From Bryum argenteum (Eukaryota; Streptophyta; Bryopsida; Bryales; Bryaceae), in NCBI GenBank assembly GCA_037043015.1, contig CM073321.1:8142001-8206000 (forward strand): DNA of 64,000 nt, read 5' to 3'. Shown piece after piece: positions 6,886 to 34,458 of this stretch. The notes below the pieces were generated by a model. That model was not told the DNA's origin, did no database searches, and was given only the letters and a program-made list of their open reading frames with translations. The stretch's first letter is position 1. Each line of letters starts with the position of its first letter. Both the position numbers and the translations under genes were made by a program.

Positions 6886-7130
6886 GATTTTTGATCACTC
6901 AAGACATTGGTATTTAGGTCACGTCGACCTAAATAGTCAATCGCGGCTTTAGCTATTTTGAATATTTTGAAGGACAAAGTGGATAAGAGCAACAAAGTAT
7001 TATGGGTTTTGAGGAGGAGAAGGAATAAACATTTCGATCACTGAAGGCATTGGTATTTAGCTCACGTCAATCTAAATAGTCAATCGCGGCTTTAGCTAGT
7101 ATGGAGGACAAAGTGGGCAAGAGCTCGTCC
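6865..7130 (+). repeat. Two-copy tandem duplication (~141 bp) with inverted TTTAGGTC sites
   Basis: The 3' end of the DUF7869-type gene and its flank are duplicated in tandem. The unit GAGGAATAAG...GATCACT...AGACATTGGTATTTAGGTC...GTCAATCGCGGCTTTAGCT...GGACAAAGTGG occurs near 6870 and again near 7011. The first copy holds an inverted pair TATTTAGGTC / GACCTAAATA around a 5-bp spacer. The second copy has the same pair with two substitutions. Confidence 0.75.
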
Positions 7131-7849
7131 ATAATTTTTTCTCGAATTGGATTTAAGCTCAGTAACGTTGAAGTTGATTAGAGTTTTCTCGTTCTGGGCA
7201 GAATCAGATAAGTAGGCTGGTGTAATTTTTTTGTAGTAGAACTGTATTGTAACTGATATTTTAGATAGAATCGTATGTTTAGAACAATATGTAATATTTG
7301 ACATTGTTATGATTTCTCATTTTAATGTGTTTTCCGTTCTGATGTGCTATTCTTTTTAGATTAGATATGGAATGTGTTTTGACCATTCCAAATATATGTT
7401 CTCAATATAGTTGAGTTTCTTGTTTTAATGGGATGTTTTGCTTATATTAGAGAGTTTTGAGTTTCTTGTTTTGCGCTTTAGGTCGACCTGAAGTCCTTTT
7501 TGTGGGATTTAGGTCGACGATAATAGAAATATTCTCACTTTAACGAAATATGTTATTTGATTATATTTTGAATATTCCCATTATAATGAATTACGTGTTT
7601 TCTGAGAAAAAGACGCATGGATCATTTGTGACAGAAGCGTCCTCAAACTCTAGTAGAGTGGAGAACGAAGCTAATTCTCCCTTGGCAACAAGCTTTTATT
7701 TTAAGTACGTACGAAAAAAGAAAACATTGTAGATTGTGAAAATTGCATACGTTGTACAAAATTTATTAATATTGTGTAGCAAATTGAATGCATACGGGAA
7801 TAAAAGTCGCTTAATAGTGACTTTGCCCAGCAATCTTATGAATATGTGA
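7131..7849. other. Non-coding stretch after copy 1
   Basis: AT-rich with no supported gene. It contains further isolated TTTAGGTCGACCT-like sites at about 7478-7515, the last signs of the motif that marks the upstream gene. Confidence 0.5.
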
Positions 7850-14061: not shown

Positions 14062-15774
14062 CAGGTTCAGTTTTCTATAGTTGTAGATCCTATCATTTTA
14101 GAGAATAATACTACAATCTGGAAGCTAAGACCCGGAAACTATCGCGTCTATGGCTTGACAGAGTCCATCATGAACGCATCAACAATTCTCCTGACCCCAC
14201 ATAGTTCTTCTACTATCTCTACGGTTGCTCCAGCACTTGCCCGTGTTAAGGTCGATCCAGGTCTTCAAGTCACTAATGACATATCCAATTCATTAGAAGA
14301 CAAGAGAAAGTCATCTTAGGAGCGATGTCGTCCATCGTCACATATTCCATTGCCGTCTTCTATTAGAGACAATTATCTCAGATCCACCCCTTCTTCTCTT
14401 CTTTCTCCGCAAATCAAAATCTGAAAAATAATTCTTCCCTCTCAGCGCAATCTTGCTAGTATGCCCAGTAGCAAGACCCTCCTCAAAAAAATTCATTTCA
14501 ATACCATTCGCACTGTCAATGTATCTTTCTTGCCTCCGTCATTCAATGGCGATGTTCTCTTCATCATTCCGCATGCTCTTCCGTCTGCAACTCACAAGGT
14601 CGCAAAGTCCATGGAGGGGATGGATAAACGGTACGATGGACATGTGTGGACTAGGACCATGACAACCAACATCAACAACACCCAAGGATTGTCTTTTCGG
14701 TACTCAAACTGTGTAGGTCACCTAAAGTGCCATAACCCAAACTGCGACTTCTTGCAACGGCCTGATCAAGTCGCTGGGGTGAACAACGTGGAGTTTGAAG
14801 GCATTACCAAAGACCACTTTCTAGTAGGCGGAGTGCAACCGCCCACCTCCACGTTGGTCTGTAAGCTTTGCAAAGAACCTCATGTTTATGTTGCGCCTTG
14901 TTTAGCCAAAATCTTTTACGTAGTTGGTGAAAAATGTCAAGAGCGTGCATGTGTCCATGTAGGAACCCACAAACACCCCGTCAAAGTCGGAGATTATAGA
15001 TGTGTACGGAAAAAGATAGAAGAGTTACTAGAAGAGCATGTTGACCGTAACCCTCAAGCAAACGTTTCCAAAATAGTTATGGAAACCAGCAAAGACTTGC
15101 TAATTAACTTACTTCTTCATGACGAAGGTGACCCCGAAACCGGCAATCTTTCTCTCCAGCAGCTAGAACATGTCTTTGAACAATGCAAAGAGCTAAACTC
15201 TCTGAGCATGCGGCATCGTATCTACACTTTCAAGTACTTGCGTAGGTATGGCATTCTCAATGATATCACAAAGCTCAGAGGTCTCAGCAACTAGGCATAT
15301 GTGCAACGCAACATGTTTCCTAGCCAAGGAAACGTATCCAAAAAAGTCTTCATCTTCAAGATGTCCGGCCTCGGCAGCGGTGTTCACCTTGTTTGCCATA
15401 TGCAGCCTGGAGGAAGTCTCTCCACGCATGGATGATGTTTGACTATGTCAAACACGTTACGGATTGGACCACCATGGCCTGCCACGATTACGACTCACGT
15501 TATCAACGCATTCTAACCATTGCATGCTGTGATTTCCAATCAGAGGACAAAGGAAACTCAACTTGTCTTCTGGAAGAACCTCAACCACGTCATGGCAAGG
15601 AACGGAGTACCCAAGCCACAGTTTTAAGGATTTATGGCTGATAGTGCTTAAGCCAACTAGACCGCTGCGCGCATCATCTACAGCTCTGGAAACCCTGTTG
15701 TCCCCATGGAAGGCCACGAACGGACATGTTACTTCCATTGGACGCAGTACCTTGAAAAACATACAAAACAATAC
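14062..15774 (+). pseudogene. MULE-like transposase, N-terminal half (split by 16.8-kb insertion)
   Basis: After a probable acceptor at about 14061 a frame runs through PIILENNTTIWKLRPG into the longest open part (14461-15291). That part holds GLSFRYSNCVGHLKCHNPNC, a Cys-rich zinc-ribbon-like segment, and C-K-L-C-K (about 14860). Coding continues past stops through FKMSGLGSGVHLV, DWTTMACHDYDSRYQ, IACCDFQSED, VFWKNLNHVMARNGVP and GFMADSA (about 15628) to RTCYFHWTQYLEKHTKQY. The GFMADSA segment has the look of a catalytic Asp region of MULE-type DDE transposases. Several nonsense codons and at least two frame changes mark decay; two stops sit where Gln and Trp would be expected. Reading stops exactly at the 26-bp repeat at 15775 and resumes at 32590 in the other half. 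Confidence 0.75.
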
Positions 15775-15800
15775 AAACACCATATTCATTATTTTGAGAG
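15775..15800 (+). repeat. Left terminal inverted repeat of the 16.8-kb element
   Basis: Starts AAACACCATATTC and ends ATTTTGAGAG; the exact reverse complement lies at 32564-32589. Just inside, CCTCTCAAAAT and GAAATTGAGAGG repeat the inner ATTTTGAGAG motif in both orientations, a subterminal arrangement also seen at the right end. Confidence 0.9.
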
Positions 15801-15984
15801 TTAATAATCCTCTCAAAATGAAATTGAGAGGTTTTAGAATGATGTTTTGTTGTACACAAATAACTTAGAAAGTTAAGAATCTTAAAGTTTCCATTCAAAT
15901 TATAGTATAATATGGGGGAAAGTTTGTGCACCGTGGCGTTTCTAAGCGGGACTTCCAATTGATTAATATAAAGACCGGAGTTAT

Positions 15985-16250
15985 TTTGAAATGGACACCA
16001 AGTCATGAGCTCAGTGGTTGGATGAGAAGGAGTCTATGTACAATGTAGGTGGTCCGAGTTCGATTCCGGTCGGACTCGTTTGAGCAGCTGAAATGTACAC
16101 ATGACTTGGTACTGCTAAGTGAGCTTCAGCGGGCAGGAAAATATTTGCTACCAACCAACCACGTACCCTTAATTGTGACATGCATGACACACACAAACAT
16201 CAGTGGTGCTAACCACTACTACCTTTTATAACAAATTAAATACATGTTAT
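15985..16250 (+). mobile_element. tRNA-derived SINE-like unit
   Basis: An A-box-like TGAGCTCAGTGG (16006-16017) and a B-box-like GAGTTCGATTCC (16056-16067) are spaced about 40 bp apart, as in RNA polymerase III internal promoters. An 11-bp inverted pair ACCAAGTCATG / CATGACTTGGT encloses this head. The body continues with an unrelated tail ending in an A/T-rich stretch. A functional tRNA is unlikely because the stem next to the T-loop does not pair in the standard way. It lies about 210 bp inside the left end of the 16.8-kb element. Confidence 0.5.
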
Positions 16251-16627
16251 AATTTTTTTTTCACATAAATCAATCGACAAAAGTACTAATTGGAAAGACC
16301 AAATCAATACTATAATATAGTATAGAAATATATTTTCATAAATGCATACAATGTATTATTGATTTCAAATGAAACCCAGTACCACAAACAAAGTGTTGCT
16401 CGAAGTGAGCTAAGTGACTTGAAAATAGTCCATGGTCCATTGATACTACCAACATCCTAAACCACACATCCTTGTAGATCATTTGGTCTAACATATCTTC
16501 TATATTTATAAATGCCTATAACCTTTTGAATTAGAAACAAAAGATTATTATTTCTAAGTCGGAAGACAAAGCCATGACTATGTAGTTGTTACAATACACA
16601 AACACGATTGCAATACATATAAGACCT

Positions 16628-19462
16628 TCAAGCATTAGAAAATTCAACTATAGTATCGTGAATGACTTTAATTTGATCCACCGGAATTTTTAAAGTGCAC
16701 TCGGTTGTATCCTTCTTGACCTTTGACTTCCATGAAGTCATCAATGAAGCTGTATTCTCCCACAGAGGAGGTTGAGTATCGTCAACCTTCCAACGCAATC
16801 CTTTGACCGAATCCCATCCATTGTAGGTCTCTTGCACATCTCGATCCCTTGATGTAGGCCGAAAGAATTGAATAAGGATGCAATTTGGCTGCTCGGGGTT
16901 TATGTTCGGATCTGACAACGCTCGAGCGATCCACACCGGTCGTGAGTCACCATCTGCAGGCCGAATAGCAAGAAAGTATCCTTCATAAACATCACGAGCT
17001 ACACGAAAAGATGGTTGAGGGCGATCTCGGATCTCTCCAACAAATGCCTCATCTTCCCCAAACTCCTCACGAAGTTCGCCATCTTCAGCAAATTGGTCCT
17101 CCAAAGTCGCATCTATCCTGGATAATGGCCAAAATCCGTCCCGAAGAACATTTGATGGTTCAATGGGAACCTCTAGTGTTGCCTTCACAGCGCGCCAATA
17201 GAACACAAGATGTTCATAGCGTCTTCTATACTCTCCAGTTCTATCTTCATTAGACATTGCCTCCCAGTACTTGATAAATCCAGAAATGCCCTCACAATGT
17301 CCTCCACACCCCTCATTGCACGATGCGTCGTAGGAGTTGGATCACCAAGTGGCCACAAAGAACGACCTTCCGAGTCTTCTCTCCACAACTTAATTCCGGT
17401 TGTATCATTTGGCAACCAATCTTCTGCTGTGCACGAAGCCTTGTACTTCATCACGGGACAACCTGTAGAATCCAAAAAGAACTTGAATTGTTGTGCCTTC
17501 GTATGACCAACAAGTGCTTCCCCTCCATCCCTGATAAACCCATCGATAAATCCTTTACAATCCGGCACCTCTTCAACAAGGTGGGGGATGGCTGGAATAG
17601 ATTCCACGTCCATGAAAGATTTCATGAGTAACGGAATAGTGGGGAAATTGTCTTTCCTCAACAAAGATGCTCCACCTTCCAAACATTGCATCGATGTCAT
17701 CATGGGTATGCCCAACCAACATGAAATTCACATATACCTCGCGGAAGATCTTCTTCGCGACAAGGAAAGACCACAAACAGAATACATATCTATTCTTGTT
17801 GTCCCCTGCTGCATTGTCCATCTGAACATTGAGAATTGGCGGAAGAGAAATCCCTCGAAGTGGAACAATTTGGTCTTTGGACGGAGTGACGATACGCAAG
17901 TCTCCGCACCTTGGAGAACAGCATCAAAGATAGGTGCCGACCTCGACCGAAGAAAAAGCTCCCTCGAAGAATACTTTGGTGGCAACTCTATATCTCGGAG
18001 GAGCTTAGCAAAAGAGCCTACCGTGTAATTTGAATCGTGTGCGAAAATATCTAGACCGTAATGTGCGTAGCGTACATCTCCGTGGCCATGAGCGATCATT
18101 CCCGTGACGGATCTTCGTAGCTTCATGAGACCATCGAGCTCCTTACTCTTGTGAGAAAAGACAGGGGAAGCAGTTTTCGCATGATCCATTTTGTCATGCA
18201 TAATGGTCAAACACTCATGCGGGTAGGTTTTCGACCTATACTGTTTGCATAATATAACTCCCGATGAGCACGGGCTGCAGGCCAAGTGTACCTCGAGCTT
18301 CTTTGCCCAAAGTAGTGCTTGTTGCGACCCGGGAATAGAGCCACGACGAAGTGTGTGCAACCGATCACATTTGGAGCACCGAGCGAAGTTATCCCCGGGT
18401 TTCTTCGCATCAAATTCAGGAAAGTGTAACTTCCGAATTCTACTCAGAGAAGATGGTGAGACCATCTTCAAACCGAAGCCTTCGTTTGCGGCGTTGATTT
18501 CCGGGATGGTACTCTTCCATTTCCATGTAGCGGGAAGAATCATGGATACAACCTTCTCTCCAGATTTTAGTGTCCTCGTTCGGTGCGGCATGTGATCGGC
18601 AGAGTTCTCCAGGATGCAACGCAGGGTTGCAGTTGCCTGCGACGTGTGCTTGCACGGTTTGAGCAAAGACGAATTTCCATGGGGATGCGCCATGACGCCA
18701 TCGGCCACGTACGTTTGAAACCGATGAAAGGTCGCCTCGGACACTCCAGCAATATGTCTCCACGCAGGCAAGCAAACATCGATTCCCTCAACAGTAACTA
18801 CCCTCTTCCCGCCAGCATTTCGATGAACCTGCCTGTGAACGTCAAGCTTCATGTGAAACCTGAATTGGTAGGTTGTACCACTATACATCCGCTCTCGGAA
18901 ACATCGGATCTTTTCCCTCGGGAAGGGCTGAACGCAGCTTCCCGGTGTGCAACAAACTTTGCCGAGTCGAATTGATGGACTCCTGAGTTAATAAGCCTTT
19001 GGACTTGACGGATGTTTCAGGAGGCGGGTTCCTAGATGTATTGTTGTAACTCCGGCTACGCGATGACTGAGGTCTAGCAAGACGTGCAACACGAGAGTCA
19101 TGATCGTGTCGTATCTCATGGTCTCTGAGACTAGCCCCATTATAGAAGACTTTATCGATCGGCCACGCCCGGCGAATATCTCCACTCATCCGCACCACCG
19201 TGGCATCAAGGGTCTTCGAGATTTGAACTGCGACTCGGGAGTGCCCAAGTGGACCATTGCTTCCGAGACGAGATCGTAATCGATCTTTGTGACAAAGGCC
19301 CTCCGCTACGGGCGACCCTCGTCACCGTAAAGGGTAACGAACTTTGTAGCCCAAAGACGCCGAGGATACCTTCACACATTGGAACGTCTTACGAACTTGG
19401 TCGCTCCACAACCTCCTCATCGAGGAGAAATCACCAAGCAATTGAACATCTTGATCGGCCAT
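16628..19462 (-). pseudogene. DUF7869-type transposase-like gene, copy 2
   Basis: Runs on the minus strand from a candidate ATG at 19462 (MADQDVQLLGDF) to a stop near 16628. The core is 18888-17810, then shifted frames at about 17840-17640, 17700-17250 and 17257-16628. The order of conserved blocks matches copy 1: CC..SCVQPFPREKI (about 18955-18915), GIDVCLPAWRHIAGVS, CSKCDRL (about 18385), HDKMDHAKT (about 18200), QMDNAAGDNKNR (about 17825), GHTHDDIDAMFGRW (about 17715) and RPADGDSRPVWIARAL near the C terminus. At least three frame changes break it. It is clearly diverged from copy 1, so the two belong to separate lineages. It is the leftmost gene of the 16.8-kb element and is transcribed towards the left end, the usual place and direction for a gene encoding the mobilising protein. 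Confidence 0.75.
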
Positions 19463-19519
19463 GGTAGAGTCTCAAATTGATCACGAACGCGACTTGAGGA
19501 AATGAAGAATATGTGGCGG

Positions 19520-20238
19520 TTCAACTCGACTCGAGTTGAATACAATAATGACATAAATCGACTAGAATTATTTACACGTAGACAAGATAATGGAATAAAA
19601 TCTCTTCCAAACTAAGAAGTCTATGAATTCAACTCGAATCGAGTTGAATACCCACGATAATTGAAGATAACCTACTTCATGGAAACGCATATCTTAAAAT
19701 ATGTGCTAATTCTCGATTTAACTCGGATCGAGTTAATCCCGTAAAATAGATAACAACTTTACGTATATGAGCCATATATCGAAACGATATGTGATATCGG
19801 AACCACAACATTCCACGAGACTACCGTAATGAACCTGTATAGTTTGGTGATAACCATTTTAACTCGAGTCGAGTTGAATGTGAATATCCTTTAATACAAC
19901 ATATCGGATTCTATGAAATTCATTTAGGCATATAGATGGTATCTCCTATCCACATTTAACTCGATTCGAGTTGAATCCAATTTTGCAATTGGAATCTGTC
20001 TGATATCTAGATAGTGATTCAACTCGACCCGAGTTGAATATCCGTACCGTACAGGAAAGTACTCCCCATAAAATCGGATAACTGCCATTTCAACTCGACT
20101 CGAGTTGAATATCACCACCTATATGTCTAAAATGCTAATTACGTAATCAGGACTGAATTATAATTTAACTCGACTCGAGTTGAAATTGGACAGACCTATA
20201 TACACCGGCACAATTATTTCAACTCGAGTCGAGTTAAA
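19520..20238. repeat. Palindrome block A: nine copies of a 21-bp site
   Basis: Nine copies of TTCAACTCGA, one free base, TCGAGTTGAA, at about 19520, 19628, 19717, 19858, 19954, 20018, 20089, 20164 and 20218, spaced 55-140 bp. Variation is mainly at the centre (C, A, G or T) and the outer base. They lie immediately upstream of the minus-strand DUF7869-type gene, in its promoter or 5' leader. Confidence 0.95.
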
Positions 20239-20900
20239 TGATTTAAATATGGAGCCCTGTGATGAACACATTCACCCGGAAATACCGGCGGAATTCCCGG
20301 AACTCGTAATCAGCTCAAAATCAAAATTCAGTAACTGCTGAAACACTGAGGAATTCCGAAGAACGCTCACCTGCGAATTGCAGATTTCGCGAGGAATACT
20401 AGGGCTCGCAACTGAAAAAAGCACGCACAACAATCAGCAATTCGTATTCGGAAGACAAACAATACAGCACGAGCAACTTCGATAACCTGAAACACAATCA
20501 AAGTATAAGAGGATGCGCCTCTTCTACAATACTAGAACCTCAAAATGTGAAGCTACTTTAAACTCCGTCAGCACAAACTCAATACAATCTAAACTGACAC
20601 GCAACTTTGAACAAGGACAGCGGAACGAAATCATGGTAAGCGCACCTTCAAAGCACGGACGAGAGTGAGAGAAATCGAAATGAAACATGAGGGATTGCGA
20701 TAGCACCCCAACCCGACCTCAACGGTTGAATCGGTCGAGTATCCTCGACTCCCGATATCGTGCAAAAAGCCGACCTCTTTTTGTCGCCACCTGCATGTTA
20801 TCTTGATTGGGCTTCGAAATAGGAATCTACTTTTTAATTCTGAATTTTGAAAATATTTGGCGGCAAAGTTGTTTCGGCGGGAAACTGATTTTGGAGGGAA
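20239..20900. other. Spacer, no gene recognised
   Basis: Follows palindrome block A. A minus-strand open frame of 91 codons (20906-20634) has no recognisable features. Probably 5' leader or promoter of the minus-strand DUF7869-type gene. Confidence 0.4.
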
Positions 20901-22740
20901 ACCCATTCGTAAGTATGCAATTTTAATTTTTTACAAAGAAATGTGTTTTCATGTTTTCTCCATAAAATTAAACATTCAATACACATGTATGAGTTGTGGA
21001 AAAAAGTACAAATTCGTACACGTAAATTTATTGAATACGATATAATATTTACAAAATTAGAGTAACTAGAGTAATTGAGAACATTGCATTGACAATACTT
21101 TACCTAGTAACTCAAAATCAATGGAATCATATATATGGTACCCTACTAATAAAAAATACCAAAAAAAAACATAAAATACTAACATAGAATAACATCACTA
21201 CAAGTAAATGGATCAATGAATACATTTACATATACATCAATATATACATAATATATTAAATACATAATATGTTAAATACATAGTATGATAAATACATAAT
21301 ATTTTAATTCATGTATATACGAGTACAAATGTATATGAATAGATAAATAAGTACGTATATGTACATAGATACGGGTATAGATGTTAAATACATAATATTT
21401 CAAGTTAATGATGAATGATTATAAGATAAATTTGACTACGTATTGAGCATTTATTGTACTATCTTAATATAGAACAATGAAAGCGCGTTTATATGACCAT
21501 ACGAGTTAAAATTGGTATACATGCAGATATACCCGAGTAAAAATGAATATTAACTTATATAAATAAGTACGTATATGTACATAGATACGGGTATAGTTGT
21601 TAAATACATAATATTTCAACCCAGTCAGCTAATATGTTATAAGATGAATTTGAATATATGTTGAGCATTTATTGTGCTATCTTAATTTAGAGAAGGGAGG
21701 CCCAGTCATATACGCTTACGAATTCAAATATGTATATACATGAATATATAAATAAATTAATATACGTATATGGAGATATACAGACAAGTAAAATTGAATA
21801 TGAAGACCAAAATAAGTACGTATGTATATACATAGACATTGGTACATAAGTTAACTTCCTAGAATCTTAATTCAATTATGTTCAATATTAACATATATTT
21901 GAATATACGTTGAGCATTTATTTTGCTATCTTAATTTAGAGAAGGAAAGCCCAATTATATGCCCATACGAGTTCAAATATGTATATACATGAATATATAA
22001 TTAAATTAACATACGTATATAGAGATATATATAAGGTTTGTAGTCAGTAATCTACTTCTCAAACATAAAACTCTTGGACGATCTTTTGGTATGTATGATG
22101 TATGGCTATGGTATGAATGATGTACGTCGATGATATTTGTGATGTATGGCCATGATATGTGTGGTGCATGTCTATAGTATACATGATGTTTGTTAAAGAT
22201 ATCTTCTATATATATACTCTCATAGTCTTATTTATATTGTCCAATTCGTTCTCTCAAACCTTCCTATTTGATTATATAGCTATCCACTAATATTTTTAAT
22301 TTGTAGCAGTTTATATTATTAATAAAATTTTATGAGTTGACAACATCTTAGAAATTAATAGAGAGGGGATAATTTTTCAGCTTCCTTTATGAGTGAATGA
22401 TGACCTTATTGGATTGGAGAACGATAACTAATTGGGAAGTTGGATATGACATAATCAAAGTTGAATTAGTGCTTGGGTATTGCCAATTGAATAATGTATT
22501 TTTCCAAGTTTGTATCTTCTTTCAATATAAAACTACACACAAATTTTTAGTAATTAAAACATGGTATTTTCGCAGACACGTTATATCTAATACTACACAT
22601 ACTACTGTAAAGTGTTGTGGAGTCTAAAATTTTACGATTACAATACATATAGTGTTAGAATAGGCATTTAATGAACTTATCTTCTTTTCAAAAATATTAA
22701 CTAGAAAAAATATTTAGATGTAAATAAAACATATAATGGA
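20901..22740. repeat. AT-rich spacer with a three-copy tandem repeat
   Basis: The segment 21.34-22.04 kb holds three diverged tandem copies at distances of about 217 and 250 bp. Each has AAATAAGTACGTAT..GTACATAGA and TTGAGCATTTATT.T.CTATCTTAAT (about 21443, 21660 and 21910). Short GATGTATGGC.ATGATATG-like units follow at 22085-22190. No gene is supported. Confidence 0.6.
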
Positions 22741-22754
22741 ATTTAGTGTAGTGT

Positions 22755-23400
22755 AGAGACGGGCAGACATGAAAAGGGCAAAAAATTGCTGCCCGAGGCA
22801 ATATACGGTGGGGGCGTGTGTAAGCGGCCCGGGTAGGCACGGGCGCAAAAGGCGGCACGGGTAGGCACGGGCAGTGCAAAAGGCGGCCCGGGCAATATTG
22901 CGGGCAGCCCGCTCTAAATTTGGCCGGGAACGGAGAGTGGGGGGGCTAGGGTTTGGCCCCCATTGTTTTCCTCCTCTTCCATGTTTTCTGCGCTCCGCTT
23001 GTTTTCGTCGTTCTCGCATTCTTGCAGTAGCTCGTGTTTTCTTGCATACTCGCTATCGCGTAGTTCTGGCCTCGACAGTCGCTAGCTCGTAGCCTCGAAA
23101 GTAGCTATCTCCTTGCCTCGAAGGTCGTGTTTGTTCATGTTTATATAGTCTCTTTTGTATCTACTCTTTTTTTGCTTCTTTTCTTGCTTCTTGCTCTGCT
23201 CCAGACGCTTTTCGCTTCTCTTAGCTTTGCGCCTCGACCCTGTTAGCTTAGAGTCTGCTTTTCGAGATAAGCGCGGCATCAAGTGCGTGGCTGGTTCGAC
23301 GGCGCTTGCGTGGCTGGTTTGAGGGCGCTTTTGCAGCTTTCGCAGCGATCATCGAAGTTCCTGGACTTCAGAACCTCTCTGTAAGTTAAGTTAACCGACA
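22755..23400 (+). promoter_or_regulatory. GC-rich leader/promoter-like segment upstream of the ParB/methyltransferase-like gene
   Basis: A GC island in AT-rich DNA with repeated CGGGCA, GGTAGGCACGGGC and GGCGGC(C/A)CGGG units, followed by a pyrimidine-rich stretch full of TTCTTGC and TCGTTCTCGC. It lies on the plus side of the divergent centre of the 16.8-kb element, about 1 kb upstream of the candidate start codon at 24102. Composition and position resemble the island at 1.96-2.47 kb. A promoter role is inferred. Confidence 0.35.
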
Positions 23401-24101
23401 GTGTTTGCTATGGAATTTCATTCTGTGGTTTAGCAAGTTTAGGTCAATTCTCTCAGTTTTCTAGACTTTGAGAGTTGAATTGTACTATCTTCCAGGAGCC
23501 TTGAAATTCGAGTGATTACATTGGAAAAGATGAGGACGAATTTTAAGTGTAGATGTCTGATTTAGGAAAGCAGAGAAAACTCGCCTAGTGGAGCTGGTTC
23601 ATAAAATTTATGAATCCGGATTTTTAAGAGCAGATCTGGAATGTGAATGTTGAAACAAATGAGTTGGCTGTTTTTGAGCTGTTTAGGGTTGATTCGAGGA
23701 AGTTAATGAATTTCGAATTGGTGAGAGTTGTCAATGAGGTTTTTCAGAGTGATTTTAGATCATTAGAATGCTTGTGTTCACTTCCAGAGCATCGGTTTGT
23801 GAATCAATTGCAATTGAATTGGTCTACTATATGATCTTCAATATTGTTCGCTGATTCTGGATCAGCTAACCTGGATTTTTGTTTTTCTTACCATGTTCAA
23901 TTGTAAATGGTCGCATATGAGGTGAATTTAGGAATTTTTTGCATGGATTGTTGATGCTGTTCTACTGGTTGCAGCGAATTTTGTTTTAATGCAGTATTGA
24001 TCACATTTGTATACAATTTTGTTCCTACAGGATCAGGGCAAAGCTGAGCCTTGTTGAATTGCGTGCGGTATTCACATAGTAGAAGAGAAGCAGATCTATC
24101 A

Positions 24102-25292
24102 ATGGGTGAGTGAACAGTATATTTTACTCGATCAATCTAAAGTTGTTTTAGCGAATCGTTCATAGCTTCAACTAGTCCCTAGTTGAATCTCACACAGAGC
24201 AGAGAGAATTCAAGTAGACCCGAGTTGAATCTTTATTCTAGTAAATTTTTAATATCAAAGTAGCATAACAAGTAGTGACGTGTGACTAATATATTTCCAA
24301 ATAGGATAAAATTAGGACACATTACCAATTCAACTCGAGTCGAGTTGAATTATAGTAGAGCCTCACGTTACAATGTGTCATACTAATTCAACTCGAGTCG
24401 AGTTGAAACAGACCGACTCTACAAAGTTCTCAGTGCAATAACAGAAGTTAATCAAAATTCAACTCGAATCGAGCTAAAATGAACTACGGTTATACTATTA
24501 ACATGTAGTCAACTCATTCTAGCATGCATATTCAACTCGACCCGAGTTAAATCATAAAGGCAACATGAATGACTTCCAAAGAACTATTCAACTCGGATCG
24601 AGTTGAATCTTGGGCACAACTTAAACTAGACAAGAAGTCCAGTATTTAAATAGCCTACAGTAAGTCTAGGAGATCTACTCAACTAAAATTACGATAACTC
24701 AGCATACCTCCATGGACGAGGTCAGTCAGGTAGAATTCAACTCGAGTCGAGTTGAAACGGATTAGACTAGGTTTGTTGGTTCGAAGAAATTGCAGAAGTC
24801 CAGAAATATTAACTCGACTCGAGTTAAAGAGAATAGCGAGGTAATGATGTTAGTCGGACTCAGTAACCTATAGATAACAAATTTAACTCGATTCGAGTTG
24901 AACCAGAGTACAGCGAACGTCACGACGTCTACAACCACCGAAACCTATTCAAGATGAATAGGTTACAATCTGATCTGCTATTCAAACAGATCAGACATAT
25001 GCACTAGATTTAACTCGACTCGAGTTGAATATCATTACAGTAAATATAATCTGGAATCGATGATAATATTGCATATGTAGTAACCATAGGTAGCAACTAT
25101 AGTAACTATATGTAGAGACCACCTTACGCCGTCATGAAAGAATTCAACTCGAATCGAGTTGAGTCCAGTTTCCTTACTAAGAAAGATGAACATAATTGAG
25201 AAGTAGAGAATGCAATTTCAACTCGACTCGAGTTGAATACTAATCCTTGCAATTCGAGTACATAAATACTAAATTTGCTTCTCTTTCTCAGC
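24102..25292 (+). other. Probable first exon (ATGG) and 1.2-kb palindrome-filled intron
   Basis: ATG at 24102 plus one base is followed by a consensus donor GTGAGT (24106). The acceptor CTCTTTCTCAGCAG ends at 25294. Joining gives M-G-E-N-P-K-E-R in frame with the next long exon. The intron is packed with copies of the 21-bp palindrome. Confidence 0.5.
24205..25237. repeat. Palindrome block B: eleven or more copies in intron 1
   Basis: Copies of the same 21-bp palindrome lie at about 24329, 24387, 24458, 24531, 24587, 24736, 24809, 24882, 25009, 25142 and 25217, plus a degenerate one at 24207. Centre base and half-site ends vary as in block A. All fall in the inferred first intron of the ParB/methyltransferase-like gene. 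Confidence 0.95.
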
Positions 25293-25294
25293 AG

Positions 25295-26720
25295 GAGAAA
25301 ATCCCAAGGAGAGGCTCTCAGCCTTCTTCGATCTCTATGTTCCTGAAAATGATAGCGAGGTCGCAGATCCCAAAATATTTGGGGACATGTGGGTGCACAG
25401 GGAGCCTGCGGATGTCGAATGGTGGAGTATGCTCCTCACACCGCACACGGACAAGCTGGCTGTCGTCACCAAGTACACGGGTGCGGAGTGCAACCTTCCT
25501 GTGAATTTGGAAGAGAACATCATCGACGTTGTAGTCCACAACACGAATTGGATATGCGTGACGTGCATCGTGGACGACCCCAACGACGACACGGCTGTGG
25601 ACCAAGACTACAGGTTCACTTACATGATCGACACAACAAAGATGGATTTCGACATCTTGGCACATGTCGACAGCATAAAAAATACACCTTACGAACCTTT
25701 GGCGAAGAATGTCGAGCAACACATTCGTGAATTTCGATTCACAAAAGATGGCGGTGAACAGCATCCACCAAGTATTCTCGCGCCTCGTCTCCGATCACTC
25801 GTCACTGCCATGGTGAACTTCAAGGCGAAGCTGCAACGCAAGAAGATGCAAATGACGCCTCTTCGTCTGACGCAGGAAGTTAGCATGCAAAGCGGCAGCC
25901 ACGAGTCTATCCTATACTAGACTCCTGAGGCGACGGGATCGAAGAAGCGCAAGGCGAATCCGTCCACAGCTCAGCGGGGGCCGACACAGAAGAAGCTCAA
26001 ATCAGTCACGACGAAGAAGTCGACCCCGGCCGACCCCACCAAGATTGAACAAAGAGCTTAGTGTCGGCTTTGACGGAGGTACCCATCGACAATGTAGACA
26101 AAGTTGTCGATTACAAGGAGTCCATGAATGTCTTCAAGAACTACTGGGGGCTCTGCCAGAGCTCATACATCTTTGGCTCACATGTGACTTTCGAGATTCC
26201 AATCGAGCGACTCTTTACCCCCCCTGCGGACCTCAACATCCGAAACCTCGAGCAGGAGAAAGTCAAGAACACGAGGCATTTCCTGATTGAGATGTCCGAT
26301 AAGAGCAAGAAGAACACCCTCTGCGTCTACCCAAAGAATCAGCTTGTGAAACCCCGATCATGGGAGGACATAAAGGACGGGGAGTTCTACATGGTCAACG
26401 GACAACATTGCGTCGAGGCATCCAAGCAGTTGCAGCTCATGCCTGATGTAGACCAAAGCATCAAGGATGAATTCAAGACATGGGACTGCTTCGTGGTATG
26501 GAACGAAGAAAAGCCCATCATTCGAAGAATCTCCGCGTTCTACAACAGGGTCAACCACTTCATGAATACGAATCCGACGTGGGCGACAAACATCATCGGG
26601 GCGCGGGAGCTGTGGATAAGCCTCGGTAGACCGGAGAGTCCGAAGGAGGCTCTTGAGGTTGGCGGTCGTCGCTCACCAAAGGCCCGGCAAGGGCAAGAAG
26701 CCTGCAAAGGACAATTTCAA
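25295..26720 (+). pseudogene. ParB-like N-terminal part of ParB/methyltransferase-like gene
   Basis: Reads from ENPKERLSAFFDLYVP through MWVHREPADVEWWSM to SHESILY, then meets TAG (25918-25920). The frame continues with a basic, nuclear-signal-like TGSKKRK...TQKKLKS stretch. After a frame change near 26055 it goes on as VSALTEVPIDNVDKVV and YWGLCQSSYIFGSH. The segment FYMVNGQHCVEASKQL (about 26385-26430) matches the pattern of the ParB/sulfiredoxin fold, which has V-x-G-x-H-R followed by an Ala-rich helix, with Cys in place of Arg. A likely splice donor GTATGT is at 26721, followed by two palindromes. The ParB assignment is motif-level inference and the Arg-to-Cys change argues against normal catalysis. 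At least two breaks. Confidence 0.5.
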
Positions 26721-26849
26721 CGTATGTGTACCTACATTCAACTCGAATCGAGTTGAATAATGTCCTACACTTCTAACGATAATTTTTGAATATCTATTTC
26801 GTTGTATCCTATTTCAACTCGATTCGAGTTAAATATCTAACTCAATACC

Positions 26850-27418
26850 GTACTCGGATGATACGAGAGTTCATGGAAGTCGTCAGACAAGATTTGCTCT
26901 CATCGACGTCAAGAACGCCCAGAGAGTCGACAACAACAAGCAAGGTCGCCAGAGAGAAGCTCAACATCGCAAATGAGCTAAAAATCATCACACTCCGGAT
27001 GATTTCTACGATGTTTGGGCTGAGCTAATCTCAGCCGCATCCCAAGGGGAGCTCATCGACCCCGAAACAGGAAGGAAGCTGAAGGAGTTGGGGAAGTGGA
27101 AGCCTGACCATGGACACCTCACCAGGGAGTTCTTCAAATGGATCGGAATCGTAGCTACGCCCGGCTCAAAACGATTAGCCGAGCATATCTTTGAATGCAG
27201 ACCGAACCCAAAACGGCGCCACTCATACCCCAAAGTCACATTGAAGCAGATGAAGGGTGTGCTTGTAGATTGCTACAGCTCTTACGACTGGCTGGAGCGT
27301 TGCAAGAGGAAGACTACCGTGAAGCGCGTGATTCATAGCATGCGCCCTGACTTAATCTTTGTTCGGCGACAAGTGGGGACTTCGGAAGGAGAGCCGGAAG
27401 AAATTCAAGAGGGATTTT
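26850..27418 (+). pseudogene. Middle part of ParB/methyltransferase-like gene
   Basis: After the palindrome-bearing intron, coding resumes near 26860 (TMIREFMEVVRQD). It changes frame near 26995 to DDFYDVWAELISAAS and runs on through GKWKPDHGHLTREFFKWIG, TLKQMKGVLVDCYSSYDWLE and RPDLIFVRRQVG to a stop at 27418. No known domain is recognised. Its continuity of style with the flanking parts and the same orientation place it in the same gene. Confidence 0.45.
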
Positions 27419-27484
27419 AAGATCACTCCAGCTACACCGAACGTTCTCCTCACGAATCCCGGGAAGATTTCTTCACGCCGCGAA

Positions 27485-28232
27485 ATTCCCAAAGAACAAG
27501 AACAAGTCCTTTGAGCAACTCTCGCCGTATGCAACAGAGTTCTTCAGGTGCTTCCTCGCCAACAAGGGGAAGTTCCAGGTGCCGAAGGGCGAAACAAACT
27601 TCAGGGCCTACAACCTGGAGGACGATGTTCTAGGGGAATGGCACGAGAACTCGTGGAATGAGCAGTCTGCTAAGCGAATCAAGGTCGGAATTATGGACTT
27701 CCGAAATCTCCCCGGAGCAAATGAGGAATCAGCGTCTTCGAGCTCGTCAGCAGGCTCCTACTTCTACAACGTCCTCCAAGTCCTGAAGTCTATCACGGAC
27801 CCCGTGGTAACTGAAATCCCAGTTTGGGTTTGGATCTGTGGAAGTAAGGATGCTGAGGCGAAGATCAAGAATCACCTCAACAGTTGCGAGTTCGGAGCAA
27901 ACTACAAGATAGAGTATGCTGAGTACGTTCCGGCTCCTTACGAGCGACTCGAGGACCAAAACTCGTCGAAGAAAGGGGCCAAGGATCATGTCCAGATCCT
28001 TTTCTTGTTTCGAAAAAATCAGAAGTTGAGGATTTCGAATCTTCCTAAGTTCTTCCAGGCCCCCGACACTCCACAGTTCAAGATCTGCGGGAGATACAAC
28101 GAGCTCGAGTACCGTATCTATAATACGGAATTGAGGATGGAGTTCTACCTGAAGCTGCTTGACATCTTCTGCAAGGAAGGGGATGCGATCCTCAGTGTGT
28201 TTGGAGGCGGGAAGCTCTACTGTGCGGCCTGG
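27485..28232 (+). pseudogene. Amino-methyltransferase-like part
   Basis: The frame runs KNKSFEQLSPYATEFFRCFL, KRIKVGIMDFRNLPG and DPVVTEIPVWVWICGS, and ends KLLDIFCKEGDAILSVFGGGKLYCAAW (about 28150-28232). The last segment matches the pattern of motif I of DNA N6-adenine/N4-cytosine methyltransferases: a Leu-rich helix, G-D-x-(V/I)-L, then F-x-G-G-G and an Ala-rich helix. A C-terminal motif I is expected for the beta class, in which the catalytic motif comes first. The catalytic D/S-P-P-Y is not visible; its expected place has MDFRN. So this is at best an inactive relative or a different use of the fold. A consensus donor GTAAGG follows at 28233. Confidence 0.5.
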
Positions 28233-28640
28233 GTAAGGATGTCCTTTGTATTTCAACTCGATTCGAGTTGAATAGTTCGCCATGACTCTGTTGCTTGCAG
28301 TGCTTGTTGTATTTAAGTCGAGTCAAGTTCACTGCGCACCTCAGTGACCAGGGATCGTTTTTCACTAACTTAAAGTCTATTCAACTCGACTCGAGTTGAA
28401 TGGAGTACTAAATATGCTAAGAAACCTTGTTCATGCATGTGTTATTAGATTTAACTCGACTCGAGTTAAATTTGGTGTTTCATGGAACTTAGAGTGTAAA
28501 GTTGGTATTCAACTCGACTCGAGTTGAATGCACACAGAAGAGTAGTCTTGGCTTTCTCTCATCGTTCACCTTCATTTCAACTCGACTCGAGTTAAATAAT
28601 CTTATGATCGACGTTGCATCTCTTGATGTGTGTACTTGCA

Positions 28641-29610
28641 GATGTGTTCCCTGATGAACTACACGATCAGCTCCAGCGAAGAGCACGACGAGGTTGTGAG
28701 ACTTTCCTTGGATGTCTTCAACTTGGATCGTCGTGATTTCGAAGAAGGGTACCCGATCGATGAGCCTTCCTTATCCAGGGAGAGACTGGAAGCACCGCCA
28801 CCCCCCACGAAGTCTGAGAAGGGGAAGGGGAAGAAGAAGGTCAGGGGTGTACAGTTACCACTTGACTTGCATGACCCAAGACCGATCGCAATCGGGTCAA
28901 GTGATGACGATGACGATCCTATCCAGGATGTTGAGGCCTACGGTTCCCAACACCCGGTAACACCCCAGACTGGACGAGGCTCATCTTCTCATCTTCCCCT
29001 GGAACAAGGCTACTCGGATACCTCTCTTTGGGCTTCTACGCCATCGCCACAGAAGAGGAAAAGGGAGTCACTATCCGTTGAAACCCTTATGGAGAAGCTC
29101 GCCAAAATGCAGGAGGATGCGCAGACTCGACATAGGATCGAAGTTGAAGCAATGCTTGCTCGAGAGCGCGAGGAACGCGCAGTCCAGAGACAGGAGGATG
29201 AGAAACGATGGAAGTTCATGTTCACAGAGGCCATCGCGAGAATGCCTGATATGGTAGTCCAAGCAATCTCGCACCTGAATGCAAAGCCTCTCTTCTCCCT
29301 CGAACCAGGTCAGAGTGAACCTCTCCTCCTAACCCACGGGCCTACTCAGTCTTCCGACAGCGGTGCAGCTCGACATGCATCTCCCCGACGTTCCCTCCAC
29401 GGGACGCCTCCTCAGTCGACTGCAGCTCCCTCACCTGCGGGAACCAACTCTCCAGTTGTTTCTACGGATCAAGGCCCATCAAGTCGCTCCACACCATCGG
29501 ACCCAGTCGAGTCGCAACGGAAGGCCGTGGATGAGGAAGAGCAGATAGGAACACAGGATCAGACTCCCGATCCCAACATTTACCGAATCAGGTTGAACTC
29601 CATGATCTAG
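28641..29610 (+). CDS. C-terminal exon with coiled coil of ParB/methyltransferase-like gene
   Basis: Begins after acceptor GTGTACTTGCAG (ends 28640), in phase with the donor at 28233. It encodes SSSEEHDEVVRLSLDVFNLD, a Pro-rich then basic KSEKGKGKKKVRGVQL stretch, an acidic SSDDDDDP patch, a PQKRKRES nuclear-signal-like motif and a charged helix (about residues 155-205, rich in E, R, M and A) that looks like a coiled coil. A Ser/Pro-rich tail ends at TAG 29608. It is open over its full length. Function is unknown; the arrangement suggests a nuclear protein with an oligomerisation helix. Confidence 0.55.
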
Positions 29611-29847
29611 TCTTTCAATTAACTCGACTCGAGTTGAATTTCTCCTTCGGTTAATGGAAGTTCGCCTGTAGAAGCCTTCGGCAGTTGTTGATAGACTAGT
29701 ATATATATTCCCGTAGGGCAGTTTTGTTAGATTGGACTCGGTGTTCATCGTGTAAATACTTTCTGTATATGACGCTCAATTTTGAACGCAGAGTTTGGAA
29801 TACAATCATATTTTCTTACACATTTTCTCCCTCTGATATCTATGCAG

Positions 29848-31038
29848 GCTCGATTGATTTGCGAAGTGTTCCGAATGTTTGTGTGTCTCATGACGTCCCC
29901 CCTATGGAAGACAACAGTCCTATGAGTCCGTTTCATGGTGAGCCAAGTAACACGGCGCAAGATGATCACAATGAAGGTCACATTCCTGATTCCATACTGC
30001 TCGAGGTTCACATTCCTCTTCCATCATCGACCGCTGTACGAGATGCACAAACAGCTGAAACTCAATCATATACACCGGTAAGCTGCTCCTTCTCCAAGAT
30101 TTATTCAATCCTTTCCATATTGGTTCGGTGTGATCGCATTGTTTGGATTCAAAATTTCTTAGTGTTATAGAAAGGGTCAGTCTCGAAATGTGGCAGTGCA
30201 GTACTTAACTGTATACACATTTGTCTGCCCCCCTTCTGAACAGGGGATGAGTCATTCGCACAGTCCGGTAGTTGCAGCCGTGGAGGATATCCCTCGTTCT
30301 ATTCCGTCAAGGGTGCCATGCAAGTGGCTCAATGTCATCCTGGACTTGAACGGTATCCTCTGTGTCTGCAAGGAGAAGAGATTCATGCCAAAGGACCAAG
30401 TTTACAACATGGTCACGAGTGCACATTCCTCTGTCCTGCCCGCTCCGATTGGTCCCAAGGCTGTTTTCGTTCGGCCCTTCTGCCATGATTTCCTTCGTAA
30501 GTTGAGTGAAGTTGCATACGTCTCCGTATGGAGTTCGATGGTTCATGCGACCACGAAGTCCATATGTGACTACTTGTTCCGGGGTGTGCCATACCCGTGC
30601 CTTGTTTGGGGGCAGAACTCTTGTGAGGTTGTCAAGGTTCGTGGACCGCGGAATAAGTTGTCCAACTTCAAGTTGAAGGGGACTAATAAGGATCTCTTCC
30701 TCAAACCACTGGATATGCTTTTCAGTGGTCTAAACTTAAAGTTTAATGAGCATGACACGATCATCATCGACGATAGCCGTGAGAAGCACGTCGTGAATGA
30801 ACCGGAGAATGTCGTACTCCCAGTCTCGTGGTCAGAGCATGATGTATCTGACAGATTCTTGGTGGACGAGCTCCTCCCTTGGATACGACGTCTACATGAA
30901 AGCCGCGGTCAGGGCTTGTTGTCTTTCCGTAGGGAAGACAACATTGGGCGTAGAATGCTCTCTGAAGAACTTGATACTTCAGAATACGAATTGCTTATTA
31001 ACGCCGTAGAGGCTTCTAGGAAGCTAGTGCATGATTAG
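29848..31038 (+). CDS. FCP1-homology (HAD-like) protein with D-L-N-G motif
   Basis: Two exons join in frame: 29848-30075 (acceptor TATGCAG, donor CCGGTAAGC) and 30244-31038 (acceptor TCTGAACAG). The 5'-most exon is not located. The catalytic region reads NVILDLNGILC (D codon about 30343), then a motif II-like SVWSSM (about 30526), a lysine-rich middle and IIIDDSREKH (about 30762). In active FCP1/SCP phosphatases motif I is D-x-D-x-(T/V). Here the second Asp, the acid/base, is Asn, as in a plant subfamily of HAD-like proteins known from memory. It is therefore probably a weak or non-phosphatase member. It is open throughout and is the best-preserved gene of the 16.8-kb element. Confidence 0.7.
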
Positions 31039-31301
31039 GCTAGTTAACCATGATTGGCCTCACCAGACAAGATTCAAATTTGTCATGTATATTGTGTAGA
31101 TTATAATAAATGATTCAATATTAATGTCTCCTCCTGGACTGATGTCATTTTAGAGCGGGCTTGTGTCCGACCCTTTATTTTATTGTAGTGTTTGATGATG
31201 CTAGTTCTCTCAGCATTGGTTTAAGTGGCGGGGTGATTTGGTTATATCATATTGCATATCATCCTTGTTGATGATTCCTTTTAAATGAATTCGTATCCAG
31301 G

Positions 31302-32177
31302 TGTCCAATTCCGTCACGGTTTCGGACAATGATTTTGATTTCCGTTGCGCTGCTTCTGCTGATTCGATTTTGGACTACGGACAATACTCAATTTCGCAGA
31401 GTGGAATGGGCCACATAATGTACTCAGCAGCTACTGCACAATCAACTATGGACTACTCGACAATGGCAATTGATGATGGTGTTGTGGATAGTCCTCCTTT
31501 TGGCGGTAAGCGACCACACTCTGCATGTTCTCCTTCCCCGCTGAAGACCCGTACCCTAATTGACGAATCAAGTCGAGGTGGCGCTCCGCAAAGAAAGCTG
31601 TACGATGATTCTGAGTTAGTTGATGATGCACTTCTCGTACAGGTATGACATACTTGAAGCAGTTCATTTATGAGTTTTTCCTAGTTTTTAACTACCATCG
31701 TAGTTTGATTTACTTACATTTCTCTATGTCTTTTCATGCACTTAGTCGACAACTGCAGCAGTCGTGCCCATACCGGTCATTTTCGAATCTCCGGCTCTTC
31801 GTTTATCACCTCATAAGGCATCGTCACTGAAAATATCTCGTGGTGCGTCGACCCATTCTCTCTCTACGCCTTGTCCATTGAATTCTTTGGAGCCAGCAAC
31901 AGAACTTGGAGACTGCCGGACGGAACTAACGGGGCCACCTAATCCGTCTGTTGCCCATGCTGTTGATACCTCGCGTTTGCGTTTCCGTACTATCGCCCGC
32001 CATTACACGAGGTCACCGCCGACTCGATCACGATGGATTTCAGTCGAGTTAGGATTCCTCCTGTTCGCGATGCATTGGGCGGCGAATTTTGAAGCTTCAA
32101 ATGACGTGAAAATTCAAGTTCGCGTTCGTCACCATACACAGGGTATAGTCGTGGACCAGAAGTGTGGAAGGCACTAG
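31302..32177 (+). CDS. Hypothetical two-exon gene at right end of 16.8-kb element
   Basis: Exon 31302-31642 follows a CGTATCCAG acceptor and ends at a GTATGA donor. Exon 31746-32177 follows a CACTTAG acceptor. Phase 0 is kept across the junction. The product is Ser/Thr/Pro-rich with no recognised domain; segments include DNDFDFRCAASADSILDYG, FGGKRPHSACSPSP and a C-terminal RHYTRSPPTRSRW basic region. It is the last gene before the right inverted repeat. Upstream exon(s) are not seen, and it may be the tail of a longer transcript. Confidence 0.4.
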
Positions 32178-32563
32178 CTGAAATTCGAAGCCGTTCGCAC
32201 TTGTGATACGGCAACAGTCTTGATATGATTTAGAGTAAATTGATCGGTATGGTTCTCCAGGGATAGCCCACATTCAACACCATACTGTATTGTTCTATTG
32301 GTATAGAAATATTGTATTTACCATCGTACATTCGTATCATTCATATGTAACCAGAGCTCACATTTTTATCTGGATGAGCATATTTCCTTTGACGTAGTCA
32401 ATTCTTGTATACAATGTCTATAAATAAACATACATTCATGTATATTCTAGTCTGGCATACAATTATTCATCCATCTATATCTGCTTGATACCATTTTTTA
32501 CAGACTATTTGTACTTTTATCATTACTTTTGGGCCTCAACAATACTCTCATTCTTGAGGAATA

Positions 32564-32589
32564 CTCTCAAAATAATGAATATGGTGTTT
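32564..32589 (-). repeat. Right terminal inverted repeat of the 16.8-kb element
   Basis: Exact reverse complement of 15775-15800 over 26 bp. Inside it, TACTCTCATTCTTGAGG echoes the subterminal CTCTCAAAAT motifs of the left end. Confidence 0.9.
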
Positions 32590-34458
32590 ACATCGTGCAC
32601 GAATTGCAAGACCAACACTGCATTCTCTCTAAGCCGTTCAAAGATGCGCACAATGGAAGAGGCTGAGATGCGTTATTGGGCTATTAGAGCATGGTAATCA
32701 TCCTCGAAGGCCACCTCCAAAGTTGGTTTAGAACACTTAGGTCATTGGCTTGCGTACTGGCACTTCAGATATAGACAATGAGGTGGATTTATAGAACTAG
32801 TAAGTGTACAATTTCTCTGCGAAGTCTTTGTTGATTACATGCACTACGATAGCTTCTATAATGTTATGACAGTAGCGAAGAATTTATCAATTAATGTTTT
32901 AATCATATAGATAATTAGTTGTTTTTTATGTGGATGTTTATATTTTGGATCTATATTAAATTCAAATCAAAAATCTAAAATAACTTCTCATAAGTTTCTA
33001 CATTTGAGGAAAAAAAATATTCGACTGAAGAACTTGCAGAGATGCCTTCATGTAACCTTGCAGAGTCAATCTATAACAAATGGCTGCAAGCGTCTGGCAA
33101 TAAGGGTAGGGATTTCTACGTTGCAGCCGTTGACGATTACGTTCGTGCCTTCCTCCAAGTGGTCGGCTACCATCAATTCAACAGAGGCGGAGCAAGTCGT
33201 TCTGAACCATCCGTAGAAGAACTGCGTGAGCGTCTTTACACCGCCGAACGTCGGGCTAATCGATCCGGCAATCCATCTTGTCTCAACAAGGCAGTTATGG
33301 ACTTCTCAGAATAGAAGCTTTTGGTACGCGTGACGCCCACTTAGAGGGGGCAGAGGTTTTTGGTTCCAGGAAACGTAAGGCAGATGTTCCTTTTGGTGCT
33401 GAAGATGAAACTCATTGACCTGACATCGTGAGCTACTTACGTCCTCGAATAGGGAGAATGGTTACACGAGCTCGTGTTGAGAATCTCAGTACTATCTACG
33501 AAGAAGATGAAGTTCAGGAGCAACCGCTGGAACCATCCAATTCAGTTGGGCCCAATATTCAACGCATCATCGCTGTTCAAGAGACAAAAGTGAATGAGAG
33601 GCTATAGTATATTGCGTGGTTGAAGGAGTCCTCATCCAAGGCTTGTTGGGTATAATGGCTAAGACTAGGAAGAAATGCGAATTCCGCATTGTCCAAAACG
33701 GGAAGGCTACCACAGCTCCAACTTACACAGGAATATGGCAGCCTCCTCAACGTGGTTACAAAATAGAAGACCAGTTCTTCTATTGTCGAGACGATATTGA
33801 GTGTTGTGTGAAGAGTAATCGTCGTAAAAGGATTGAGCCGTTCTCTCAGAAACAAGGTTGGCCTCCTATTTTCCTAGTTTGGCCCGTGAAGATTGGAACT
33901 AATCTGACACGTAACAAGATGGAGGCGTTGGAGAATGCGGGCTTTCAGCTCCAACAATAGAAATGGCTTCTACTCAACCGCACATTCAATACTGTTGCCC
34001 TACCGAGAGACTTGTCACATATTCCACTGCCGGACATAGCTGTTGTGTACCCAAAATCACGAAAGTCTAAACTTCTTCGGCACATAAAGGCTGTGACTCC
34101 GAAGTACATGAAGAACATTGATTCAGCTCGTGCCATGGAGGCAAAAATACTCGAGGTGACCATGATACCACAACCTTGTTTTAGATGTATCGTTGCTTTG
34201 GAGTCGGATTCAGAGTCTATCTATAAACTATCTCTTAGAAAGAACCCTAAGTGTTCTTGCCCGGTGTTCAAAAAATCCACTACTAAGTTAGGACGAAAAG
34301 GCAAACCGTATAGACATTGCAAGCACCTATACTTCGTATTGGTATTGGTATACAAATTTGATACAGATAGAGACCTCTTCATCCACGCGCCCATGCTCAC
34401 TTTCAACGAGGTGAAAATGATTCTAGAGAGGGGAATCCTAGACCAAGTTTCAGAGTAG
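32590..34458 (+). pseudogene. MULE-like transposase, C-terminal half with SWIM zinc finger
   Basis: Coding resumes right after the inverted repeat as YIVHELQDQHCILSKPFKDA, continuing the frame left at 15774. It then shifts to RTMEEAEMRYWAIRAW, followed by LEHLGHWLAYWHFRYRQ. Later parts are PSCNLAESIYNKWLQASG (33042), VDDYVRAFLQVVGY, GIWQPPQRGYKIEDQF (about 33730) and a SWIM-type finger, K-C-S-C-P (about 34249) with H-C-K-H-L (about 34314), ending at 34458. Frame changes and stops are spread along it; two stops replace expected Trp codons. SWIM fingers are characteristic of MULE-type transposases and their FAR1-like relatives. Confidence 0.75.

Follow-up and report, generated by a model that had tools for sequence, protein, structure and literature searches.

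A DUF7869-bearing terminal-inverted-repeat element and its private palindrome family in Bryum argenteum

What kind of element has split a transposase-like gene of the moss Bryum argenteum, and what might its many near-identical palindromes be for? The locus lies in a stretch of 64,000 nucleotides (positions 8,142,001 to 8,206,000 of contig CM073321.1, assembly GCA_037043015.1, forward strand), here called the window, to which all coordinates refer. An interval of 16.8 kb (16,815 bp) within it is a single insertion bounded by terminal inverted repeats (TIRs), and encloses a DUF7869 gene, a companion gene, an open reading frame (ORF) of NIF/FCP1 type and 28 strong copies of a short palindrome, or dyad. 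We think it rather probable that this is a decayed, formerly autonomous DUF7869 transposon, in which the 28 dyads would act as a self-recognition array, for activation or for protection from silencing. An earlier note had interpreted the interval as a large TIR element, inserted once, that has an unusual combination of genes and its own palindrome family, and this interpretation stands, except for a supposed ParB plus methyltransferase gene, which profiles do not support. Its observations on the TIRs, the joint, the palindromes and the NIF/FCP1-like ORF are upheld; the DUF7869 gene is present in broken form, and the MULE-like character of the target gene is weak.

The ends of the element and the insertion joint

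The TIR sequence, a 26-mer, occurs exactly twice in the window, at 15775-15800 on the plus strand and at 32564-32589 on the minus strand. These perfect inverted repeats, which the earlier note had pointed out, are indeed the only pair; no third copy is found in the window at up to three mismatches, and 100 shuffles gave an expected number of 0. The longest perfect inverted repeat in 20 simulated 64-kb sequences (Markov-1, keeping the dinucleotide habit of the window) measures 15–18 bp, as against 26 bp in the element, which places the pair beyond the simulated range. Two symmetric parses of the ends exist. If the target-site duplication (TSD) is TACA, at 15772-15775 and 32589-32592, the TIRs are 25 bp long (AACACC...) and run from 15776 to 15800 on the plus strand and, in a perfect match, from 32564 to 32588 on the minus strand. 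If it is AC, at 15773-15774 and 32590-32591, they are 26 bp long and the left one begins at 15775. A scan of the window for TIR pairs with equal flanking letters recovered the element pair at TSD lengths of 2 and 4, and found no pair whatever with a 9-bp TSD; the other pairs among the matches listed are mostly pairs of dyad motifs, one DUF7869 gene against the other, or weak imperfect pairs. Once the interval and one TACA or AC are removed, the joint stays open (...FHWTQYLEKHTKQY/IVHELQDQHCILSKPFKDA...), and the claim that its removal restores one frame holds with either set of duplicated bases. These observations support the interval as one large TIR DNA element that entered an open frame once, duplicating a few target bases.

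Short repeats of the sequence TTTTGAGAG/CTCTCAAAA are also seen at the left end (15792-15830): the TIR contains one, a second stands in inverted orientation at 15810, immediately inward of it, and TTGAGAG at 15824 is a shorter version. TTTTGAGAG lies near the ends at 15792, 15810 and 32564, with one more elsewhere in the window, and proves little, because two of the three belong to the TIR itself. Seventeen bases of the TIR have a single three-mismatch match at 7583-7599 on the minus strand, near a second DUF7869 gene, which is at chance level (0.40 expected).

The dyad motif and its placement

The dyad TTYAACTCGANTCGAGTTRAA has 30 pattern matches in the window, where 0.07 are expected, and 29 of them lie inside the element. 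All but one of these 29 are strong, the copy at 28313 being degenerate, and the count agrees well with the "about 30 private palindromes" reported earlier. The single match outside, at 3793, is weak (three mismatches); a further degenerate dyad, at 24207, is not among these pattern matches. Exact half-sites number 47 inside the element, and the remaining 47 kb of the window has 0.

Variation among the copies is confined to set positions. In the 58 half-sites of the 29 dyads, the seven core positions make up 406 cells, of which 3 vary, whereas the Y position is other than C in 19 of 58 half-sites, 18 of them with T (Fisher p = 4e-16); the centre of the dyad may be any base. Because the variation is position-specific, the motif looks like a binding site for a dimer, and not like a recent burst of copies.

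The strong palindromes avoid coding DNA as we read it: all 28 lie outside the 6,997 of 16,815 bp read as coding, an outcome with a chance of about 3e-7 if sites are independent. Nine stand at 19521-20237, directly upstream of the DUF7869 gene and within about 0.8 kb of its candidate ATG, and another eleven (24330-25236) lie immediately before the first companion exon read, in what is either promoter or first intron. Two occupy a companion intron (26738-26832, with the bounds of the intron set by eye), five strong copies and the degenerate one at 28313 sit inside the intron 28233-28641 (at 28253-28595), and one (29619-29637) follows just downstream of the companion stop. Over 23 short spacings between palindromes, no helical phasing was detected. 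Separately from the dyads, the element has an A+T-rich noncoding tract at 21200-22200 that includes diverged, directly repeated units of about 40-140 bp.

Genes of the element and its surroundings

The DUF7869 gene of the element, a putative transposase, lies on the minus strand (16631-19462; candidate ATG at 19462, by eye) and is divided by three frame changes into four frame pieces, which span 18987-16631. Three of the four were scanned against the Pfam profile PF25273 and gave 25.3 bits, 16.3 bits and no match (E-values of 1.3e-5 and 0.0074 for the two that matched), all below the curated cut-off of 26. The DUF7869-type gene described earlier is present, in that two of the three scanned pieces match, in a frame-broken form that stays under this cut-off. 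A match of one piece to DUF4144 (Pfam, E=0.03) is counted as chance or unexplained. Given the three frame changes, this copy of the element is probably dead or non-autonomous, unless they are sequencing errors.

A second DUF7869 gene, assigned to an element 2, is found on the plus strand at 3950-6885. It comprises an exon at 3950-4003 (by eye), an intron at 4004-4083 and a main exon, contains two in-frame stops (TGA at 4459, TAG at 5236) and no frame change, and matches PF25273 with 146.5 bits (E=9.4e-43; cut-off 26). All four pieces of the element's gene align with it, at 46-66% protein identity by piece. Over 769 codon pairs, the two genes differ at 38%, 31% and 63% of codon positions 1 to 3, and at 71% of 154 four-fold sites. 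A pN of 0.34 against a pS of 0.81, together with the near-saturated third positions, points to long purifying selection on DUF7869; the two lineages are thus old and were constrained for most of the time, as expected of genes that need their function to spread.

Directly upstream of the second gene, an array of repeats of about 30 bp (TTTAGGTCG..CTAAACGCAC; 2685-3714, plus strand) is found, and just after its stop stands a palindrome with the same half-site as the array (TTTAGGTCACGTCGACCTAAA; 6913-6933), a degenerate copy of which lies some 143 bp further on. TIRs around element 2 were sought in the window (14 bases, at most one mismatch, first 6 exact, TSDs of 2, 3, 4, 5, 8 or 9 bp) and none was found. 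A half-site common to the motifs of both DUF7869 genes, TTYAnnTCG, was considered and rejected, as an equally good match came from 5767 of 20000 shuffled units. Downstream of the second gene, a minus-strand gene at 7870-10300 is interrupted by stops and matches no profile; it includes the piece YFYVYEGNHHVIAWMRHIERY and, read by eye, a basic SPRLAAKSK stretch. Neither Pfam, blastp nor single-sequence hhalign supported this gene as a homologue of the companion gene.

The companion gene runs on the plus strand from about 25292 to 29610. Two of its exons, at about 25292-26721 and about 26862-28232, have bounds set by eye, and a third spans 28642-29610. The last intron (28233-28641) has canonical GT-AG borders and is in phase 0; the reading by eye includes one in-frame stop and several frame changes. 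Splicing over this intron joins ...ILSVFGGGKLYCAAW to MCSLMNYTISSSEEHDEVV..., a junction that by eye resembles methylase motif I with its acidic partner, and YMVNGQHCVEAS resembles a ParB box; neither likeness has profile support. The boxes read by eye, GQHCVEAS and VFGGGKLYCAAW, are the sole sign of ParB or methylase, and the gene has no ParB or methylase profile match in Pfam, PHROGs or NCBIfam. In Pfam at a limit of E=10, with filters that drop most matches above 0.1, the ParB-like piece drew only Pam16 (0.13) and the spliced methylase-like piece nothing. Among PDB sequences, the methylase-like pieces found no match, and the ParB-like piece found two non-significant VIN3-like ones (E=0.32 and 0.57); a predicted structure model of the latter piece had a mean pLDDT of 32.7, too poor for a fold search. 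The description of this gene as ParB plus methyltransferase is therefore unsupported, with no profile in these three collections and no PDB match of note behind it. Weak matches of IS66 or transposase type occur at 26977-27417 (Pfam E=0.22, PHROGs 0.0036, NCBIfam 0.0072). Other matches are counted as chance or unexplained: Saf4_Yju2 for 28627-29607 (E=0.014) and Pam16 for 26049-26753 (E=0.2), both in Pfam, and a helicase loader for 25273-25917 (PHROGs, E=0.011).

The FCP1-like gene of the earlier note is confirmed by an open plus-strand ORF of 291 aa at 30163-31038, which matches PF03031 with E=2.3e-15. Its motif I reads DLNG, with Asn in place of the second Asp of DxDx. Two further NIF-like ORFs lie outside the element, on the minus strand at 61332-61949 and 62582-63115; they are about 25% identical to the element's ORF and have NG.LC of motif I in common, the motif reading SVNG in the former and DLNG in the latter. 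With DLNG or SVNG in motif I, phosphatase activity of these proteins is doubtful. Two plus-strand ORFs of 119 aa (31289-31648) and 143 aa (31746-32177) are perhaps 3' exons of the element's NIF-like gene.

The target is a pseudogene, with stops and frame changes. Its left part (14425-15771, plus strand) has in-frame stops, and its right part (32593-34458, plus strand) has frame changes and ends in a SWIM-like CxC..CxH stretch (E=0.4). The earlier designation as MULE-like holds weakly: we take that character from its motifs, neither the left nor the joined piece matches a MULE profile in Pfam, and besides the SWIM stretch of the right flank there is a weak Pfam match of a 35-aa right piece to the En/Spm-type Transposase_23 (E=0.17).

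Relatives were also sought in sequence collections of viruses and prokaryotes, where a negative result carries little weight. The TIR sequence and the NIF-like ORF found no relative in the viral contig collection, nor did the latter among PDB sequences; the palindrome found none in the viral contig and genome contig collections. The companion exons gave 1 and 2 stretches in the viral contig collection and DUF7869 gave 2 and 94 pattern stretches, none confirmed as a relative; one companion exon had no relative among phages. In the open-licence literature searched, some 5.39 million papers, neither the word DUF7869 nor any of four DUF7869 motif strings occurs, and no paper on a plant transposon with FCP1 was found. 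The lineage is apparently undescribed, as judged from that literature rather than from Repbase.

Elsewhere in the window, two related EnSpm/CACTA-type gene sets stand in tandem at 50362-59070 (Transposase_21, E=5.2e-59, in the first), and a third related ORF lies at 40854-41738. A 180-bp unit is present in three head-to-tail copies, 76-77% alike, at 55985-56524. The first 1960 positions are very A+T-rich (23% G+C in 1-2000) and end abruptly at a G+C-rich low-complexity region.

What the array may do, and its likeness to known systems

How might these parts have worked together? We suggest that the 16.8-kb transposon inserted once into the transposase-like gene, producing a 4-bp (TACA) or 2-bp (AC) target duplication, and that the DUF7869 protein would be a transposase of DDE type that performed both cutting and joining at the TIRs. 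It is plausible as the mobilising protein: of the nine interior ORFs scanned, no other is a clear candidate for a transposase, and the diverged second copy has been under long purifying selection. The 28 dyads would then form a self-recognition array rather than end sites for the transposase. They may be bound by a nuclear protein that the element itself encodes and that acts as a dimer. The companion product, which we label nuclear-type for its basic KKRK stretch (by eye), is the likeliest candidate and the DUF7869 protein the alternative; the bound dimer would activate the transposase and companion genes, or shield them from silencing in the manner of VANC in VANDAL elements. The layout of the motifs is much like that of VANDAL21, and by this analogy we regard element-private self-recognition, by activation or anti-silencing, as the most likely function of the dyads, with plain autoregulation as its main rival. 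A private repeat array, whose motif is a different one, also stands directly upstream of the second DUF7869 gene, and this counts in favour.

Several points weigh against this proposal. Mobility rests on one insertion, and the coding map was drawn partly by eye; the 11 motifs at 24330-25236 may belong to promoter or intron. In profile searches (Pfam, PHROGs, NCBIfam), no domain that binds or modifies DNA could be recognised in the companion gene, and its IS66-type matches at 26977-27417 are unexplained and possibly chance. The predicted structure model of a DUF7869 piece (mean pLDDT 32.4) is too poor for a fold search, and the profile has no solved relative among PDB sequences. The motifs of the two DUF7869 genes are alike only at the chance level given by the shuffles, and those of the element are dispersed dyads, in contrast to the same-orientation tandem repeats of VANDAL21. 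Finally, CpG stands at an observed/expected ratio of 0.99 in the element, against 0.90 elsewhere in the window, so that the element bears no mutational footprint of a methylation from which to escape.

It is also possible, at a lower but appreciable probability, that the dyads are ordinary transcription-factor or autoregulatory sites, read by a host factor or by the DUF7869 protein regulating itself, and unrelated to silencing. Their placement, ahead of the DUF7869 gene as well as within and close to the companion gene, would suit such sites, and a dimer-type half-site with one degenerate base would suit any dimeric factor. Yet a host-factor site should occur elsewhere too, and the other 47 kb hold no exact half-site; 28 copies are also many for a promoter.

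Rather unlikely, in our judgement, is the idea that the DUF7869, companion and NIF-like genes are passengers, the element having been moved in trans by another transposase that recognises only the TIRs. The frame changes of the DUF7869 gene are in line with this idea, as are the two NIF-like ORFs outside, which make that gene not exclusive to the element. It is opposed by the scan of the nine interior ORFs, in which no other clear transposase appeared (one ORF has the weak IS66-type matches), and by the presence in the window of a second, constrained DUF7869 copy.

A private repeated motif in a DNA transposon is usually a sign of transposase-binding sites, and the subterminal repeats of En/Spm are sites of this kind. 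That the dyads served transposition in the same way is improbable here: the strong dyad closest to either end of the element is 2,951 bp from it, so that none of the 28 is subterminal. No more likely is it that the palindromes are a parasitic mini-element which spread within the transposon. Palindromes that are nearly identical while their flanks are unrelated are what such a mini-element would leave, but no flank duplications of at least 4 bp were found around the 28 strong dyads, which argues that they are not little insertions; nor would it account for variation limited to set positions, or for strong palindromes confined to one element of the window and lying outside exons as read. Although only one locus is visible, we consider it very unlikely that the inverted pair stems from two separate small insertions, or from an assembly or rearrangement artefact, as the window has just two TIR copies, both facing outward, and TSD and target frame match across the interval.

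We return to the DUF7869 transposon with a self-recognition array, and to the systems with which it can be compared. EnSpm/CACTA elements share the short TSD; unlike them, the element ends in AACACC or AAACACC rather than CACTA, and none of the nine interior ORFs scanned matches Transposase_21. Sola elements have a 4-bp TSD, with which the TACA parse is compatible; the comparison is one of TSD length. The Sola superfamily is listed among the DNA transposons of Repbase (PMC4455052). Fungal DNA transposons that carry a TET/JBP dioxygenase, for which hAT, IS3EU, PHIS, EnSpm and KDZ transposases are named and the word DUF7869 does not occur (PMC12730594), offer a parallel in the idea of a DNA transposon equipped with a gene against epigenetic silencing. 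In this respect the present element differs, as none of its ORFs scanned matches a TET/JBP profile.

The closest parallel is with VANDAL of Arabidopsis, a member of the MuDR superfamily with VANC anti-silencing. MuDR elements make a 9-bp TSD, unlike the 2 or 4 bp seen here, and the element has DUF7869 in place of any MULE or MuDR profile match among the nine interior ORFs scanned. No VANC was found in it, and anti-silencing is proposed here by analogy of layout. The VANC21-binding motif YAGTATTAY is reported to be mainly noncoding; VANC21 and VANB21 have it in their introns, and it also precedes the transposase gene VANA21, arranged in same-orientation tandem repeats (PMC5735166), and the targets of VANC6 bear motifs that differ from those of VANC21 (PMC5735166, PMC10398659). 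The 21-bp dyads of the moss element are dispersed, as opposed to a 9-base motif in tandem. The likenesses are a private short motif with a Y-type degenerate base and a mainly noncoding placement, motifs that precede the transposase gene and occupy companion introns (for 11 of the 28 here, promoter or intron), and related elements with different motifs (PMC5735166, PMC10398659).

This opens the tentative reading, in our view far from established, of a convergent VANC-like system in a non-MuDR lineage, in which a dimeric element protein would read a private 21-bp dyad and keep only its own family unsilenced. As part of that reading, related DUF7869 elements would switch to new motifs, as suggested by the array, of another kind, that precedes the second gene. 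If so, the anti-silencing strategy would be convergent and its motif layout predictable. Should DUF7869 prove to be a transposase, an uncharacterised protein family would gain a function, and very large elements with host-like cargo would become recognisable; and should the motif layout signify self-recognition, anti-silencing by private noncoding motifs, as shown for VANDAL, would recur in an unrelated transposon.

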